From Microlunatus phosphovorus NM-1 (GTDB lineage Bacteria > Actinomycetota > Actinomycetes > Propionibacteriales > Propionibacteriaceae), in contig NC_015635.1 of the NCBI RefSeq assembly GCF_000270245.1, forward strand, positions 4,216,001 through 4,280,000: a DNA stretch of 64,000 nt. The letters run 5' to 3'. Of the stretch, positions 5,165 to 64,000 are shown one piece after another. The position numbers were made by a program, and so were the translations under genes. Below the pieces are notes generated by a model, which saw only the letters and a program-made list of their open reading frames with translations, was not told where the DNA came from and did not search any database. The stretch's first letter is position 1, and each line of letters starts with the position of its first letter.

Positions 5165-6187
5165 TCAGCTTTGGAGGTAGCGTCCGAGACCGACCGCCAG
5201 ATAGACCGCGGCGTACATGCCTGTCTGCAGCACGGTGGCATAGCGCTCCACATCGGAGCCACTGGCATGCTGCACCACGCATACTCGGATGTCATTGCGT
5301 TCGGCGGCAGTCCGCAGCCTGGCATGAGCGTGGCGAATCGGCGGTTCCGGGTTTCCGTCGTCGAGGATCAACAGCACAGGTCGCCGATCGGCCGACACAG
5401 CATCCTCGAACGGGTCAGCGAAGGGGTCGCGAGGCGCTGCGGACTCCAACACGGTGATCAGCTCGTCAGCGTCGGCGGCCAACGCGGCCCGGCCGCTCGC
5501 GGCACGCAATGCTTCGGCGACCCGCCGACTCGCTCGAGCGGCCAGCACCGAACCGCCCCAGACCAGCGGGTGCGCCTCAGCCAGCCCCATCGCCAGGTCC
5601 TTGGCAGGGTTCTCGGCGACATTCACGTACGGAGAGCAGTCGGTGGCCACCTGATCCATCGCATCCGCCACCTGCCACGGGTCCACCTCCGGCCCTAGCT
5701 GCAGCCGGTGCAACGCGGCCAGTGTGACGATCGCCGCGGCCAGCGGATCGGCGGTCGAGGTGGGCAACAGAATGGTCGAGCTGGAGACCGCGTGATCGGC
5801 GATGATCGAAGCCGGTGGACAGGCGATCAGCAGCTGGGCGCCGCGGCGTACCGCCTCGTGCACGGTTGCGAGCAACGCGGGGGTCACCAGATCGCTGGCC
5901 ATCACCACGACCAGATCCAGGGCCCCCACCCAACCTGGCAGCCCATGCGCCGGCCAGGCCACGAACGGGACCGGACAGGCCGGCTCCAGCATCGCGCGGA
6001 TGAACCGGGCTTCGCTGCCCACCGCGATCACTGCCCGAGGACGCTCGAGCACCGACATCTGCAGCAGCGGCTCCTCCGCCCCACCGAACTCCCGGCGCAG
6101 CCGAGCGCCCGCCTCAGCGAGGCGCCGTAGACCGGCGTCGGCGTCGCGAAGAGCCCGCTGATCCTCCAGCCAGGAGTCGTCGAACAT
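5165..6187 (-). CDS. SIS-domain protein, phosphoglucose/phosphomannose isomerase-like
   Basis: A 340-residue cytosolic protein with a SIS (sugar isomerase) layout: an N-terminal domain with PRAVIAVGSEARFIRAML and DLVVVMASDLVTPALL, and a C-terminal half with HPLVWGGSVLAARASRRVAEALR. It resembles the bifunctional PGI/PMI family, but I cannot see clear catalytic residues, so enzymatic activity is uncertain. Position supports a sugar-phosphate role: it lies 4 bp downstream of the Trm112-like gene and close to phosphomannomutase on the same strand. Mycobacteria have a comparable gene next to manB (from memory). Confidence 0.8.
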   Translation of the reverse strand: MFDDSWLEDQRALRDADAGLRRLAEAGARLRREFGGAEEPLLQMSVLERPRAVIAVGSEARFIRAMLEPACPVPFVAWPAHGLPGWVGALDLVVVMASDLVTPALLATVHEAVRRGAQLLIACPPASIIADHAVSSSTILLPTSTADPLAAAIVTLAALHRLQLGPEVDPWQVADAMDQVATDCSPYVNVAENPAKDLAMGLAEAHPLVWGGSVLAARASRRVAEALRAASGRAALAADADELITVLESAAPRDPFADPFEDAVSADRRPVLLILDDGNPEPPIRHAHARLRTAAERNDIRVCVVQHASGSDVERYATVLQTGMYAAVYLAVGLGRYLQS

Positions 6188-58960: not shown

Positions 58961-61399
58961 ATGCTGCGGGTCACGCTCTCCGAGGTACGGGCCCATCCGA
59001 CCCGGTTGCTCGGCATCGTGCTGGCGGTCGCACTCAGCGTCGGTTTCGTGGTCGCCAGCCTGGTCTTCGTCGACACCGAGGCTGCCGCGATCCGACGGGC
59101 GGTCTCCGCCCAGACAGCCGGCAGCAGCGTGGTCGTCCTGCCGACGACCGAACGTGACCTCACGCCCACGATCGCGAAGACGACCGGAGTGGAGCACGTC
59201 GAGGCATCCCGGAACACCGCGCTGGAGGCAACCCTCGGCGGCCGCAACACACTGCTGATGGTCACCACCTTGCCGGGCGATGCGCGACTGCGCTGGATGA
59301 CCTTGCACGACGGTTCCTGGCCCCGGATCGCCGATGAGATCATCATCGGCCGGCAGACTGCAGAGCGGGCGAAGGCAGTTGTCGGCGACACCATCGGCGT
59401 ACGCGGCATAGGTGGCGCCGGAGAAGACCGGCAGCTGCGCCTCACCGGTCTGATCGACGAGTCCGCCTCACTGTTCGCGAGCATGCAGAGCACCGCCTTC
59501 GCGCCGGCCTCCTCACCGATACTGGCCGACGGCGGCGTCGAATATCTGGTGATCGCCCGTCCCGGTGTCGATCCTCCCACGCTGGCGAGCACACTGCGGA
59601 CCCAGCTTCCGGCCGATACCGATGTCGTCACGTCTGCCGACCTGGCCCAGCAGCGGCTCGAGATGGTGACTGGCGGCGTCGACGTGATCCGCTATCTGCT
59701 GCTCACCTTCGGCAGCATCGCCGCCCTGGTCGGCTCCATGATCATCGCCAACATCTTCGCCATTGTCGTCGCCCAGCGGCGCCGCCAGATCGGACTGCTG
59801 CGCGCCGTCGGCGCCACGCGCGCCCAGGTACGCCGCAACCTCCTGCTCGAGGCAGCCGGCGCTGGTGTCCTAGGCGCGCTGTTGGGTGCGCTGATCGGCA
59901 TCGGCGTGGCTGCCGTGGGGGCTGCGGCGACGGGGTCACTGTCCAGCGGACTCGAGGTACGGATCGGGCTGGTGCTGCTCACCGGGCTCGCCGGTGTGGT
60001 GATCACCGTGCTGTCGGCGCTGGCTCCCGCGCGACGGGCCATGGTCGTGACTCCGCTCGACGCCTTGCGACCCGTGTCCGAGCCGGGGGCCGCCCGACGA
60101 GCGGGCCGGATTCGAGCGGTCGTCGGTGGCGCTCTGGGCCTGGGCGGGGTCGCCGCCATCGCCGCCGGACTGATCCGCGGCGGCAGCGGCACCCTGGTGC
60201 TCTGCATCGCAGGATCCGCACTGGCGGCCGCCGCCATCATCGCGCTGGCACCGCTGTTCCTCCCGCCGTTGCTGCGAGGTCTCGCACGACTGCTGCAACG
60301 GAGCCGGCCGACCGTCCGACTCGCCAGCGCCAACCTGGTCCGCAATCCCAGCCGGTCCGCTGCGGTGTGCACGGCCTTGATGTTGGGCGTAGGCCTGATC
60401 GTGACGCTGCAGGTGGGCGCCGCCAGCATCAAGAGCAGCACGGAGGCGTCCCTGCACCACGAGTTCCCGGTCGATGTCATCGTCCGATCCCAGTCCGGCG
60501 CACTCCCGAACTCGGTGCCCCGGGAAGTGCGTGAGCTGCCCGGCATCCGCGCCGCGATCACCGTCCCATCGGCGGAGACGCAGGTCGGTAACGGCACCGT
60601 ACGGCTGGACGGGCTGGGCCCCGATGCCGGCTCGGTGGTGGCCGGCGGACTCGACGTTCTCGATGACAACACCGCGCTGGTGCACCCCTTCACCTTGGAG
60701 ATGATCCGCAAGAATCCCGGTGACCGGGTCGAGATCCGGATCGGCGGCAGATCGCACTCCTTCGTCCTGCGGGCCAGCGATGTCGCGGATGCCGGCGCGC
60801 TGGCGATCACCTCGGACGCGCTGCACAAACTGGCGCCCGACGCGCCGATCACCGCGGTCTGGGCCACTGCCCAGCCTGACGCCGACCCGGCGGCATTGAT
60901 GGACGACGTGCGGACCATCGCCGATCGGCAGACCGGACTGGAGGTCTCCGGCTCGCTGCTGGATGTGGCGGCCATCAGCAAAGTGCTTGATCAGTTGTTG
61001 GCCATCAGCACCGCGCTGACCGCCGTCGCGGTCGTGATCGCGGTCGTCGGGTTGGGCAATGCGCTGGCGCTGTCGGTGATCGAGCGGAGCCATGAGTCGG
61101 CCTTGCTGCGAGCCCTGGGGCTGCAGCGGCGGCAGTTGCGCTCGATGCTCGCTGCGGAGGCCATCCTGCTGGCTCTCATCGGCGCCGCCGTCGGGGTGCT
61201 CGCCGGCATCGGCTTCGGCATGGTCGGCACCGCGGCCATGGCGGGCGAGGCCGGCTTTGCCGTGACTCGGTTCGCGATCTCGATCCCGCAGACGGTGATC
61301 GTGCTCGGGGCTGCCGTGGTGGCCGGTGCGGTCGCCTCCGTGCTTCCCGGGCGTCGGGCCGCCCGCGCCCACCCGGTGGAGGCCCTTGCTCAGGCCTGA
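58961..61399 (+). CDS. MacB/FtsX-family ABC permease
   Basis: An 812-residue permease with two FtsX-type repeats. An N-terminal helix (LLGIVLAVALSVGFVVASLVFV) is followed by a large exterior loop. Then come three helices with LLLTFGSIAALVGSMIIANIFAIVVAQRRRQIGLLRAVGATRAQVR, a second set of helices, a second exterior domain, and a C-terminal triple with LSVIERSHESALLRALGLQRRQLRSMLAAEAILLALIGAAVGVLAG. It pairs with the ATPase gene just upstream. The ATG at 58,961 is used; the GTG at 58,952, which would overlap the ATPase gene, is equally open. Confidence 0.92.
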   Translation: MLRVTLSEVRAHPTRLLGIVLAVALSVGFVVASLVFVDTEAAAIRRAVSAQTAGSSVVVLPTTERDLTPTIAKTTGVEHVEASRNTALEATLGGRNTLLMVTTLPGDARLRWMTLHDGSWPRIADEIIIGRQTAERAKAVVGDTIGVRGIGGAGEDRQLRLTGLIDESASLFASMQSTAFAPASSPILADGGVEYLVIARPGVDPPTLASTLRTQLPADTDVVTSADLAQQRLEMVTGGVDVIRYLLLTFGSIAALVGSMIIANIFAIVVAQRRRQIGLLRAVGATRAQVRRNLLLEAAGAGVLGALLGALIGIGVAAVGAAATGSLSSGLEVRIGLVLLTGLAGVVITVLSALAPARRAMVVTPLDALRPVSEPGAARRAGRIRAVVGGALGLGGVAAIAAGLIRGGSGTLVLCIAGSALAAAAIIALAPLFLPPLLRGLARLLQRSRPTVRLASANLVRNPSRSAAVCTALMLGVGLIVTLQVGAASIKSSTEASLHHEFPVDVIVRSQSGALPNSVPREVRELPGIRAAITVPSAETQVGNGTVRLDGLGPDAGSVVAGGLDVLDDNTALVHPFTLEMIRKNPGDRVEIRIGGRSHSFVLRASDVADAGALAITSDALHKLAPDAPITAVWATAQPDADPAALMDDVRTIADRQTGLEVSGSLLDVAAISKVLDQLLAISTALTAVAVVIAVVGLGNALALSVIERSHESALLRALGLQRRQLRSMLAAEAILLALIGAAVGVLAGIGFGMVGTAAMAGEAGFAVTRFAISIPQTVIVLGAAVVAGAVASVLPGRRAARAHPVEALAQA

Positions 61400-61437
61400 G
61401 GTCACATGGGGCCCGCGGGTCAGCCGCGTACATCGCG

Positions 61438-61445
61438 TATATAGT
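61438..61445 (+). promoter_or_regulatory. -10 region of the fluoride operon
   Basis: The AT-rich run TATATAGT stands in GC-rich DNA just before the riboswitch. A TATATA or TATAGT -10 box would start the transcript near 61,450, exactly where the aptamer begins. No convincing -35 is visible. Confidence 0.5.
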
Positions 61446-61449
61446 GAAT

Positions 61450-61511
61450 CGCGGCGATGGCGTCCGCCAGGGGTAGCTCCCCGAACCGCCCCGCAGGGCT
61501 GATGACTCCTG
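61450..61511 (+). ncRNA. fluoride riboswitch (crcB motif)
   Basis: The transcript contains all parts of the crcB aptamer in order. P1 is GGCG (61,453-61,456) with CGCC (61,465-61,468) enclosing AUGGCGUC. A variable extra stem GGGG/CCCC follows at 61,470-61,482, then the GAACCG joint. The second stem is GCCC (61,488) with GGGC (61,496), and then UGAUGACUCC. The loop GGCGUC can form the pseudoknot with GACUCC with one mismatch. It lies 32 bp before the stress protein gene, which precedes two crcB genes. Fluoride binding should relieve repression. A following stem AGACG/CGUCU (61,512-61,529) next to the Shine-Dalgarno is a possible expression platform. Confidence 0.9.
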
Positions 61512-61529
61512 AGACGATCGTTCGCGTCT
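61512..61529 (+). promoter_or_regulatory. hairpin between fluoride aptamer and Shine-Dalgarno
   Basis: AGACG (61,512-61,516) pairs with CGTCT (61,525-61,529), loop 8 nt. It directly precedes GAGGAG (61,530-61,535). It may block ribosome access or be the remnant of a terminator; there is no U-run. Confidence 0.45.
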
Positions 61530-61542
61530 GAGGAGCATGCCC

Positions 61543-62052
61543 ATGAGCCAGTCCCCACCCCATCGCAGCGTGGTCATCGCGGTGACCTCTCACCAGCCCG
61601 ATTCAGTCATCCGTACGGCGGCCTGGCTGGCCCGCTCGCTGGATGTCGAGCTGGTCTGTGCCCACGTGGATACCTCGGCCTATGTCGTCGAGGAGCATCC
61701 CGACGGAACCGTCGAGGCCCGACCGCTGGATCCGGATGCCCAAGAGTGGATCTGTGCCCAGTTCGACCCCGAACTGGCCGCACGGATCGACCGGCTCGTG
61801 GGCGACCAGGGCATCTCGGTGCGGACTGTCGAGCTGGCCGGCGAGGTGGCGCGGGCCATCGCGCGCCTGGCGGAGCTGGTTCGCGCCGAATTGATCGTGG
61901 TCGGCACCCGCTCCGGGGTCCGGGCGAGTGTGCGGGAGTACTTCAGCGGCTCGGTCGCGGTGCATCTCGCCCACCGGCAGACCATCCCCGTGGTGGTGGT
62001 GCCACTCACGGCACACGCCGAGGGACCGCTGCCCTGGGAGGACGAGCAGTGA
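61543..62052 (+). CDS. universal stress protein
   Basis: A 169-residue UspA-family protein. SVVIAVTSHQPDSVIRTAAWLARSLDVELVCAHVD starts the alpha/beta fold. The C-terminal half has ELIVVGTRSGVRASVREYFSGSVAVHLAHRQTIPVVVVP, a variant of the ATP-binding GxxG...GS pattern. The second of two ATG codons (61,543) is chosen because GGAG sits at the right distance; 61,537 is also open. The gene lies first under the fluoride riboswitch, so it is induced with crcB. Its role in fluoride stress is unknown. The stop overlaps the next start (GTGA). Confidence 0.88.
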   Translation: MSQSPPHRSVVIAVTSHQPDSVIRTAAWLARSLDVELVCAHVDTSAYVVEEHPDGTVEARPLDPDAQEWICAQFDPELAARIDRLVGDQGISVRTVELAGEVARAIARLAELVRAELIVVGTRSGVRASVREYFSGSVAVHLAHRQTIPVVVVPLTAHAEGPLPWEDEQ

Positions 62053-62603
62053 GCCACCGAGAAGTGAGCCACGGGGAAGCGAACCATCGGCAAGACGTGA
62101 AGCGTCGGGAACCGAAACACCAGGAGTCGCCGCCGTTCGACAGTGAACTGGTCACCGAGCGACCCAAGTCCCGACGTCCACGGGCAGCGCACCGCTCCCC
62201 CGCCAATATCGCTCTGGTTGCCGCGGGCGGTGCCATCGGCACCGGTCTGCGCTATGGCCTGATGTTGCTCATGCCACCGGTCGCCGGGGTGCCCGTCGCA
62301 ATCCTCACCGTCAATCTCGTGGGCGCCTTCCTCCTTGGCCTGCTCTTGGAGGCCTTGTCGGAGTTCGGCCCCGATCACGGTTGGAGCCGCCGGCTCCGGC
62401 TGGGGATCGGCACCGGTGTGATCAGCGGGTTCACGACCTACTCCACCTTGGCCGCGGACAGCGTCACGCTGGCGCTGGCCAGCCCGGTGATCGCCGTGGC
62501 GTACGGCGTCGGCACAGTGATCATCGGTGGGCTGGCGTCGGTTGCCGGCATCGCCACCGCTCGTCATCTGGTGCGCCCGCGGATCGCGAGGTCGGCCTCA
62601 TGA
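62049..62603 (+). CDS. crcB: fluoride channel subunit CrcB/Fluc (1)
   Basis: A 184-residue membrane protein that lets fluoride leave the cell. The first 55 residues are an unusual charged tail rich in His, Arg and Glu (REVSHGEANHRQDVKRREPKHQ), partly coded by a repeated GTGAGCCACxGxGAAG. The channel domain follows: ALVAAGGAIGTGLRYGLMLLM, TVNLVGAFLLGLLLEAL and GIGTGVISGFTTYSTLAADSVTL with the Gly/Thr/Phe-type motif of Fluc channels. The start overlaps the stress protein stop; a GTG at 62,064 may be used instead. It overlaps crcB2 by 4 nt. Confidence 0.92.
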   Translation: MSHREVSHGEANHRQDVKRREPKHQESPPFDSELVTERPKSRRPRAAHRSPANIALVAAGGAIGTGLRYGLMLLMPPVAGVPVAILTVNLVGAFLLGLLLEALSEFGPDHGWSRRLRLGIGTGVISGFTTYSTLAADSVTLALASPVIAVAYGVGTVIIGGLASVAGIATARHLVRPRIARSAS

Positions 62604-62974
62604 TCCTCGAGTTCCTGGCAGTCTGCGTAGCCGGCGGCATCGGCGCGGCGCTGCGCTTCATCGTCGACGGCGCAGTCCGACACCGCACACCGCCGAGCTT
62701 CCCGTACGCGACCATGATCATCAACATCACCGGGTCCCTGGTGCTTGGGCTGCTCGTCGGGCTCGTCCTGGGTCAGGTGGCCTCGCACTACTGGCAGTTG
62801 ATCGTCGGGACCGGGATGATGGGCGGCTACACGACCTTCAGCACAGCGAGTGTGGAAACGGTGCGCCTGGTCGAGGAAGGCCGGTGGCGGGCCGGCTTGA
62901 TCAACGGTTTCGGCATGCTGGTGCTGTGTACGGGCGCCGCCGCCGGCGGTCTCGCGCTCGGGCTCAGTCTGTAG
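62600..62974 (+). CDS. crcB: fluoride channel subunit CrcB/Fluc (2)
   Basis: A 124-residue protein, the usual length for a Fluc subunit, with four membrane helices. The signature GGIGAALRFIVDGAV, MIINITGSLVLGLLVGLVLG and GTGMMGGYTTFSTASVETVRLVEEGRW are all present. Fluc channels work as dual-topology dimers; two tandem genes usually mean antiparallel heterodimers. The ATG overlaps the crcB1 stop (ATGA). The 160 bp after it, before the convergent MFS gene, include the palindrome CCACCGCGGTGG and a short GGGG-CAT-CCCC stem that may terminate the operon. Confidence 0.95.
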   Translation: MILEFLAVCVAGGIGAALRFIVDGAVRHRTPPSFPYATMIINITGSLVLGLLVGLVLGQVASHYWQLIVGTGMMGGYTTFSTASVETVRLVEEGRWRAGLINGFGMLVLCTGAAAGGLALGLSL

Positions 62975-63134
62975 TCGGGCTTGGCAAGCGGCCTCGATCG
63001 GGGCATCCCCGGGAGAAGAACCGCCACCGCGGTGGTCCAGAGCCGGATGCGATCACCCTGGATGCCTTCGGCCGACCCATTCCAGAAGCCGACCCCTTCC
63101 AGAAGACTGAGCGCTTCCCCCTCTCGGCGGGAGG

Positions 63135-64000
63135 TCAGCGCGGCGAGACCGGCGGACGGCGCAGCGTCCGCACCAACAGCACGAGTGCGATCAGCTGCGT
63201 GGCGGCGACGTACGCGATCAGTGCGGGTGTCGAGTGGTCGTACAAGGCACCGGCGATGACACCGCCGAGGACGGCCGCACCCCCTTGGACGGCGGCGAAG
63301 AGTCCGTACGCCGTGCCTCGTCGCGGCGCCGGCACGAGGTCCGCGACGAGGGCTTTGACGGTCGAGTCCTGGAGTCCGCTGGCCGCTCCCCAGGCCAGGA
63401 CGCCGACCATGACCAAGGGCAGCGCGTCGGCGAAGGCGAACACCGGCACCGCCGCCACCAGGAGCGGCAGCACGAGCAGCACCCGGGCATGGATCCGGTC
63501 GAACAGGAAGCCGGTACCCAGCGCGGCAACCCCGGCGGCGGCCATCGCCGCGGCATAGATCACCGGTACGAGCGCAGCACTGGTCACCCGTCCGTCGACC
63601 AGGTGGTAGCCGATGACAGCGAACGTCACCAAGCCCGCTGTCGTGGCCCCGGCGGCTGCGGCGAAGGTCCAGAACTCGCTCGGCAGTCGATGCCGTGGGA
63701 GTGGCTGCGCGGTCGGGGTGGCACTCGGGATCGGCATGGCACTCGGGTTGGACACAACACCTGGGGTCGGACTGTCCGGCCCGTTGCTGGCCGTCCCGGT
63801 GTCGTTGCTGGCGCGGCGGAGCACCAGCAAGACGATGATCGACAGCGCACCGGGAATCGCGAGCACGACAAGTCCCGACCAGAGCGCGCCGGTCAGGCTG
63901 ATCACGGCGGCGACCAGCAGCGGACCGGCGAAAGCACCGAGTTGGTCGAGTGCCTTGTGCACGCCGAAGCCGCGGCCAAGCCCCACGACGCCCGAGGCTT
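63135..64000 (-). CDS. MFS transporter, C-terminal part
   Basis: A truncated gene that runs off the right edge. The visible 288 codons hold about eight membrane helices and the motif SGVVGLGRGFGVHKALDQLGAFAGPLL, an MFS motif seen in helix 4-5 loops. FLFDRIHARVLLVLPLLVAAVPVFAF and GAASGLQDSTVKALVADLVPAPRRGTAYGLFAAVQGGAAVLGGVIAGALYD follow in the C-terminal half. A cytosolic loop with Pro/Ser/Thr repeats (SNPSAMPIPSATPTAQPLP) separates the halves. Substrate unknown. A GTG at 63,986 is in frame but the reading frame continues upstream with conserved sequence, so that is not the start. Confidence 0.88.
   Translation of the reverse strand, partial: ASGVVGLGRGFGVHKALDQLGAFAGPLLVAAVISLTGALWSGLVVLAIPGALSIIVLLVLRRASNDTGTASNGPDSPTPGVVSNPSAMPIPSATPTAQPLPRHRLPSEFWTFAAAAGATTAGLVTFAVIGYHLVDGRVTSAALVPVIYAAAMAAAGVAALGTGFLFDRIHARVLLVLPLLVAAVPVFAFADALPLVMVGVLAWGAASGLQDSTVKALVADLVPAPRRGTAYGLFAAVQGGAAVLGGVIAGALYDHSTPALIAYVAATQLIALVLLVRTLRRPPVSPR

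Follow-up and report, generated by a model that had tools for sequence, protein, structure and literature searches.

A fluoride-riboswitch operon of Microlunatus phosphovorus NM-1 encodes a member of a dedicated, uncharacterised subfamily of universal stress proteins

Why should a universal stress protein (Usp) stand first in an operon whose other genes encode fluoride channels? The question is raised by a locus of Microlunatus phosphovorus NM-1 found towards the end of the 64,000-nucleotide stretch of DNA analysed in this work (hereafter the window), in which a riboswitch is followed by usp, crcB1 and crcB2. Fluoride export by Fluc channels is understood; the operon itself is ordinary and the Usp branch is its intriguing part. 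We consider it probable (about 0.85) that the locus is a fluoride-resistance operon whose translation is turned on by fluoride, with a heterodimeric exporter and a dedicated Usp.

The riboswitch, its operon and the mode of switching

The Rfam model of the crcB motif (RF01734, gathering score 34) was matched over its full length at 61444-61518 of the forward strand, with 47.4 bits and an E-value of 4.9e-10. This confirmed the fluoride riboswitch that a first-pass annotation of the sequence had proposed upstream of usp. The aptamer anatomy given at that time was right as well. Covariation among 52 distinct aptamers from the same family supports a structure that comprises P1 (61453-61456/61465-61468), a pseudoknot between the P1 loop and a 3' strand (61459-61464/61504-61509) and a 3' stem (61488-61490/61497-61499), all three being part of the RF01734 match. 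Standard pairs made up 92.7 % of paired cells in this structure, versus 27.6-57.2 % when the partners were slid, and doubly changed cells numbered 87, where shuffles averaged 27.6. The M. phosphovorus aptamer shares with RF01734 the full-length match, the conserved core and the covarying pseudoknot and stems, and differs from it in two features that are common in the M. phosphovorus clade. One is an additional hairpin (61470-61473/61479-61482) between P1 and the GAACC segment, where the model has an unpaired 12-nt insert; it covaries strongly in actinobacterial aptamers (37-42 of the 52 family aptamers have letters at those positions). The other is a mismatch in the middle of the pseudoknot, of which five of six pairs form. 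The C.U mismatch noticed earlier is indeed present (C61461 facing U61507) but has nothing special about it, since this pair is unpaired in 12/52 family aptamers and the next one in 25/52.

Three genes follow on the same strand: usp (61543-62052, 169 aa), crcB1 (62049-62603, 184 aa, with a GTG start and a long N-terminal tail) and crcB2 (62600-62974, 124 aa). Their order and their 4-nt overlaps (GTGA at 62049-62052, ATGA at 62600-62603) are as first described. The start of usp is more likely ATG 61543, at a spacing of 7 nt from the Shine-Dalgarno AGGAG (61531-61535), because ATG 61537, which an annotator may use, is only 1 nt from it. The genome has two crcB genes in all, both in this operon. 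An MFS gene on the minus strand, starting at 63135 and convergent to the operon, was dropped as a candidate member; its similarity to the MFS gene after crcB on plasmid pZXY21 of Arthrobacter sp. ZXY-2 is weak as well (36 % over 110 aa). Elsewhere in the genome, a second fluoride riboswitch (45.0 bits, L002:1501-1573, i.e. G000:C1:145014-145086) precedes a short, broken-looking open frame, pieces of which by eye resemble an MFS transporter; the one frame tested had no Pfam match.

Just 5' of the aptamer, the sequence TATATAGT (61438-61445, forward strand) is a possible -10 element, which would place the transcript start near 61451; we treat it as a candidate because a consensus scan returned no sigma-70 pair. 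At the other end of the aptamer, an expression platform hairpin is predicted at 61506-61535 of the same strand (fold of -19.0 kcal/mol, z -2.0). In this hairpin CUCCU (61506-61510) can pair with the Shine-Dalgarno AGGAG, and the stem is lengthened by AGACG/CGUCU, giving CUCCU-G-AGACG / CGUCU-G-AGGAG with 5+5 bp. As positions 61506-61509 are needed by the pseudoknot too, the two structures are mutually exclusive. The same hairpin was found in another member of the genus (G149_C280). Among 32 riboswitch-usp leaders of the family, the Shine-Dalgarno is paired somehow in 22, and in 13 its partner is the pseudoknot strand itself, both being raw counts with no shuffled control.

From this arrangement, the switch is likely translational, by sequestration of the Shine-Dalgarno. 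Without fluoride, pairing of 61506-61510 with 61531-61535 would form a stable hairpin and leave usp untranslated, and output of crcB1 and crcB2 would also be low through coupling across the 4-nt stop/start overlaps. Binding of Mg-fluoride would lock 61459-61464 with 61504-61509 and block the hairpin, so that Usp, CrcB1 and CrcB2 would be made. Overlap with intrinsic terminators is frequent among crcB RNAs (PMC2864571), and this speaks for the rival reading of transcriptional control through a terminator overlapped by the aptamer. Such control appears very unlikely here: no terminator-like site was found at 61380-63150, on which ground an intrinsic terminator was rejected, and the competing hairpin takes in the Shine-Dalgarno and is followed by no U-run.

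Distribution of the trio and its channel pair

The first-pass annotation had considered a Usp placed first under fluoride control to be uncommon. Fluoride riboswitches were present in 52 of 198 genomes sampled from the same family. Counting by hand from tables of riboswitch neighbours, this usp is the first gene behind 34 of the 79 family riboswitches, with the crcB pair immediately after it in 31 of these 34 cases. The same trio occurs in three genomes of other families within a separate class-wide sample. Loci were further retrieved by Usp sequence alone, using an alignment of 16 sequences (a subset of 36). The 80 named actinobacterial loci so obtained, which are the best-scoring matches and not a random sample, span Propionibacteriaceae, Cellulomonadaceae, Promicromonosporaceae, Dermacoccaceae, Intrasporangiaceae, Actinomycetaceae, Nocardiopsidaceae and others. 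Two crcB genes lie directly downstream in 65 of the 80, a riboswitch upstream in 35 and both in 32. On the family, class-wide and Usp-search counts, the trio is therefore standard in this lineage and widespread in Actinomycetes, contrary to the early impression. The trio is not everywhere under fluoride control, given that 45 of the 80 loci have no recognisable riboswitch, and the Usp subfamily is patchy phylum-wide (11/396 sampled genomes). No paper on the actinobacterial trio was found in the literature searched, most subscription journals lying outside its scope.

Both channel proteins carry the CRCB domain (PF02537, cut-off 32.9), with 71.3 bits for CrcB1 and 86.0 bits for CrcB2, the latter also scoring above the cut-off of TIGR00494. 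Their TM3 motifs are SGFTTYSTL and GGYTTFSTA, respectively. By motif alignment the central Phe positions are Y80/L83 in CrcB1 and F80/A83 in CrcB2, so that one of four phenylalanines is kept; in many relatives, the CrcB pair retains two or three of the four. Neither protein has the homodimer-type TM3 (GxxGGxTTFSTFxxE, with both central Phe per subunit), which excludes only the homodimer type because paired Flucs are known to deviate. Each of F80Y, F83L and F83A abolishes transport in the homodimer Ec2, and some central Phe are lost in paired Flucs such as the Mt pair (PMC5636608). In the trio, TTYS is found in 63 of 65 CrcB1, and TTFS together with A at the second Phe position in all 47 readable CrcB2 motifs; the asymmetry between CrcB1 and CrcB2 is near-universal there. 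We propose that the two proteins would form an antiparallel heterodimer, a Fluc channel exporting fluoride. In paired Flucs both subunits are required (PMC3755343). The pair resembles La1/La2 of Lactobacillus acidophilus in being encoded by two adjacent, divergent crcB genes (PMC3755343), and differs in that its central phenylalanines are largely replaced and that the channel is here a predicted one.

CrcB1 had also been singled out for a charged, His-rich N-terminal tail. Such a tail does exist (about 53 residues before the CRCB domain, with 5 His) but is not a conserved feature, because both its length and its composition vary among relatives: the median over 65 loci is 15 aa, and longer acidic tails occur in the genus. 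A role of the tail as a sensor was rejected on the same ground.

A distinct clade of fluoride-linked Usps

The window protein belongs to the Usp family by its domain (PF00582, 67.3 bits for a cut-off of 24) and by its structural model (mean pLDDT 86), the best PDB fold matches of which are all Usps. In a tree that also included 22 other Usp domains of the genome, all crcB- or riboswitch-linked actinobacterial Usps formed one clade (support 99/95 for 55 rows). Scored with a profile of the linked Usps, in which it is itself included, the window protein reached 211.6 bits; no other Usp of the genome exceeded 26.6 bits. Residues V22, A26, D54, G55, D65, L98, A99, G100, A110, G121, L142, Q146 and P154 are invariant. 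What is new here is that the fluoride-linked Usps group in a single, well-supported clade, which excludes the other Usps of the genome and lacks the canonical ATP motif. As this clade spans many actinobacterial families, it offers a defined protein set for addressing why stress proteins accompany fluoride exporters.

The motif G2xG9xG(S/T) marks the ATP-binding class of Usps (MJ0577/UspFG type). It was found in none of 56 clade members and in 2 of 23 further Usp domains taken for comparison; where a beta-1 Asp is usual, clade members have V, T, E, I, K or R. Since most other Usps of the genome also lack the motif, its absence is evidence against ATP sensing rather than a unique mark of the clade. 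The suggestion that this Usp senses ATP thus loses support, and a canonical ATP/AMP-binding energy sensor is improbable, even though the fold is the same as that of nucleotide-binding Usps. TeaD and MSMEG_3811 likewise have the Usp fold in common with the window protein, the clade of which differs from them by lacking the canonical ATP motif and by its conserved DG, DPD, LAG and QxRP residues.

Channel, enolase and the possible role of the Usp

A role of the Usp in fluoride damage, as originally suggested, is plausible. The protein would be a cytoplasmic component dedicated to the fluoride response. It would probably protect or regulate some process that fluoride inhibits, enolase being the partner most strongly hinted at, and would not act as a canonical ATP-binding Usp; taken alone, this role is a tentative proposal. 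Some loci suggest that usp takes part in the fluoride response independently of crcB. In Promicromonospora panici, Luteimicrobium album and L. xylanilyticum (L153, L158 and L159, respectively), usp stands behind a riboswitch and the 3-kb flank contains no crcB. In a genome of the same genus (G108), usp and the crcB pair are under separate riboswitches, and in genomes G121 and G131 no crcB pair follows usp.

These loci weigh against the Usp being a regulatory partner of CrcB1/CrcB2 that would control their assembly or gating, much as TeaD goes with the TeaABC transporter. Such a partnership would agree with the translational coupling and with the strictly kept neighbourhood of usp and the crcB pair (65/80 loci), and TeaD is among the PDB matches by both sequence and fold; this match is weak evidence because Usp folds all look alike, and the existence of an open frame joining enolase to a Usp speaks against the partnership as well, leaving it doubtful. 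That frame would rather point to a metabolic enzyme inhibited by fluoride, enolase first of all, as what the Usp protects or regulates. It belongs to an operon on pZXY21, with the order RF01734 riboswitch-gpmA-(eno-usp)-crcB-crcB-MFS, in which enolase and Usp are read as one in-frame ORF of 621 aa (L227:4612-6474). The fusion is a single record in which an internal AGGAG and ATG are retained, and it may have arisen through loss of a stop codon or an error in sequencing. Association of the two genes is also seen in a single fluoride-controlled operon eno-usp-crcB-crcB (G017) and in DHHA2-usp-eno-gpm-crcB on an Enterobacter plasmid. The value of the latter is lessened by its Usp, which does not group with the actinobacterial clade: its branch in the tree is long, isolated and of unsure placement, and the protein has no meaningful BLASTP match, so that we rejected it as a homologue of the actinobacterial Usp. 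Protection or regulation of enolase is accordingly a possibility short of even odds; we would rank action on the enolase side slightly above action on the channel side. A broader proposal, to which we give somewhat less than an even chance, is that a dedicated actinobacterial fluoride-response Usp subfamily without canonical ATP site acts directly on Fluc or enolase, and that in enterobacteria another Usp may have been recruited independently to the same task.

One of the closest known systems is the GI3 operon of Enterobacter cloacae FRM, ppaC-uspA-eno-gpmA-crcB, in which uspA is riboswitch-controlled and its transcripts rise 120-fold with fluoride (PMC5533749). As in the window, usp and crcB share a fluoride riboswitch; the FRM operon differs by its single crcB and its extra glycolytic genes, and the Enterobacter plasmid operon whose Usp falls outside the actinobacterial clade is similar to it. 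Strains deleted for uspA, crcB or both still grow at 1000 mg/L fluoride, with an MIC of 3000 mg/L in all (PMC5533749), and the contribution of the Usp may therefore be small.

Several relatives show further riboswitch matches or other genes behind them. In L159, two more matches lie at 5317-5709. In the G108 genome, a region of about 24 kb (L032, L033; G108:C14:52567-76907) contains nine matches to the fluoride riboswitch, seven of them at or above the cut-off, and one more lies elsewhere; they precede genes for MutS-V, dynamin-like, enolase and NADHdh-type membrane proteins as well as usp and crcB. Finally, genes for a NUDIX hydrolase and a histidine phosphatase were observed directly behind fluoride riboswitches of relatives (L048:11475-12002 and L036:14933-15568).
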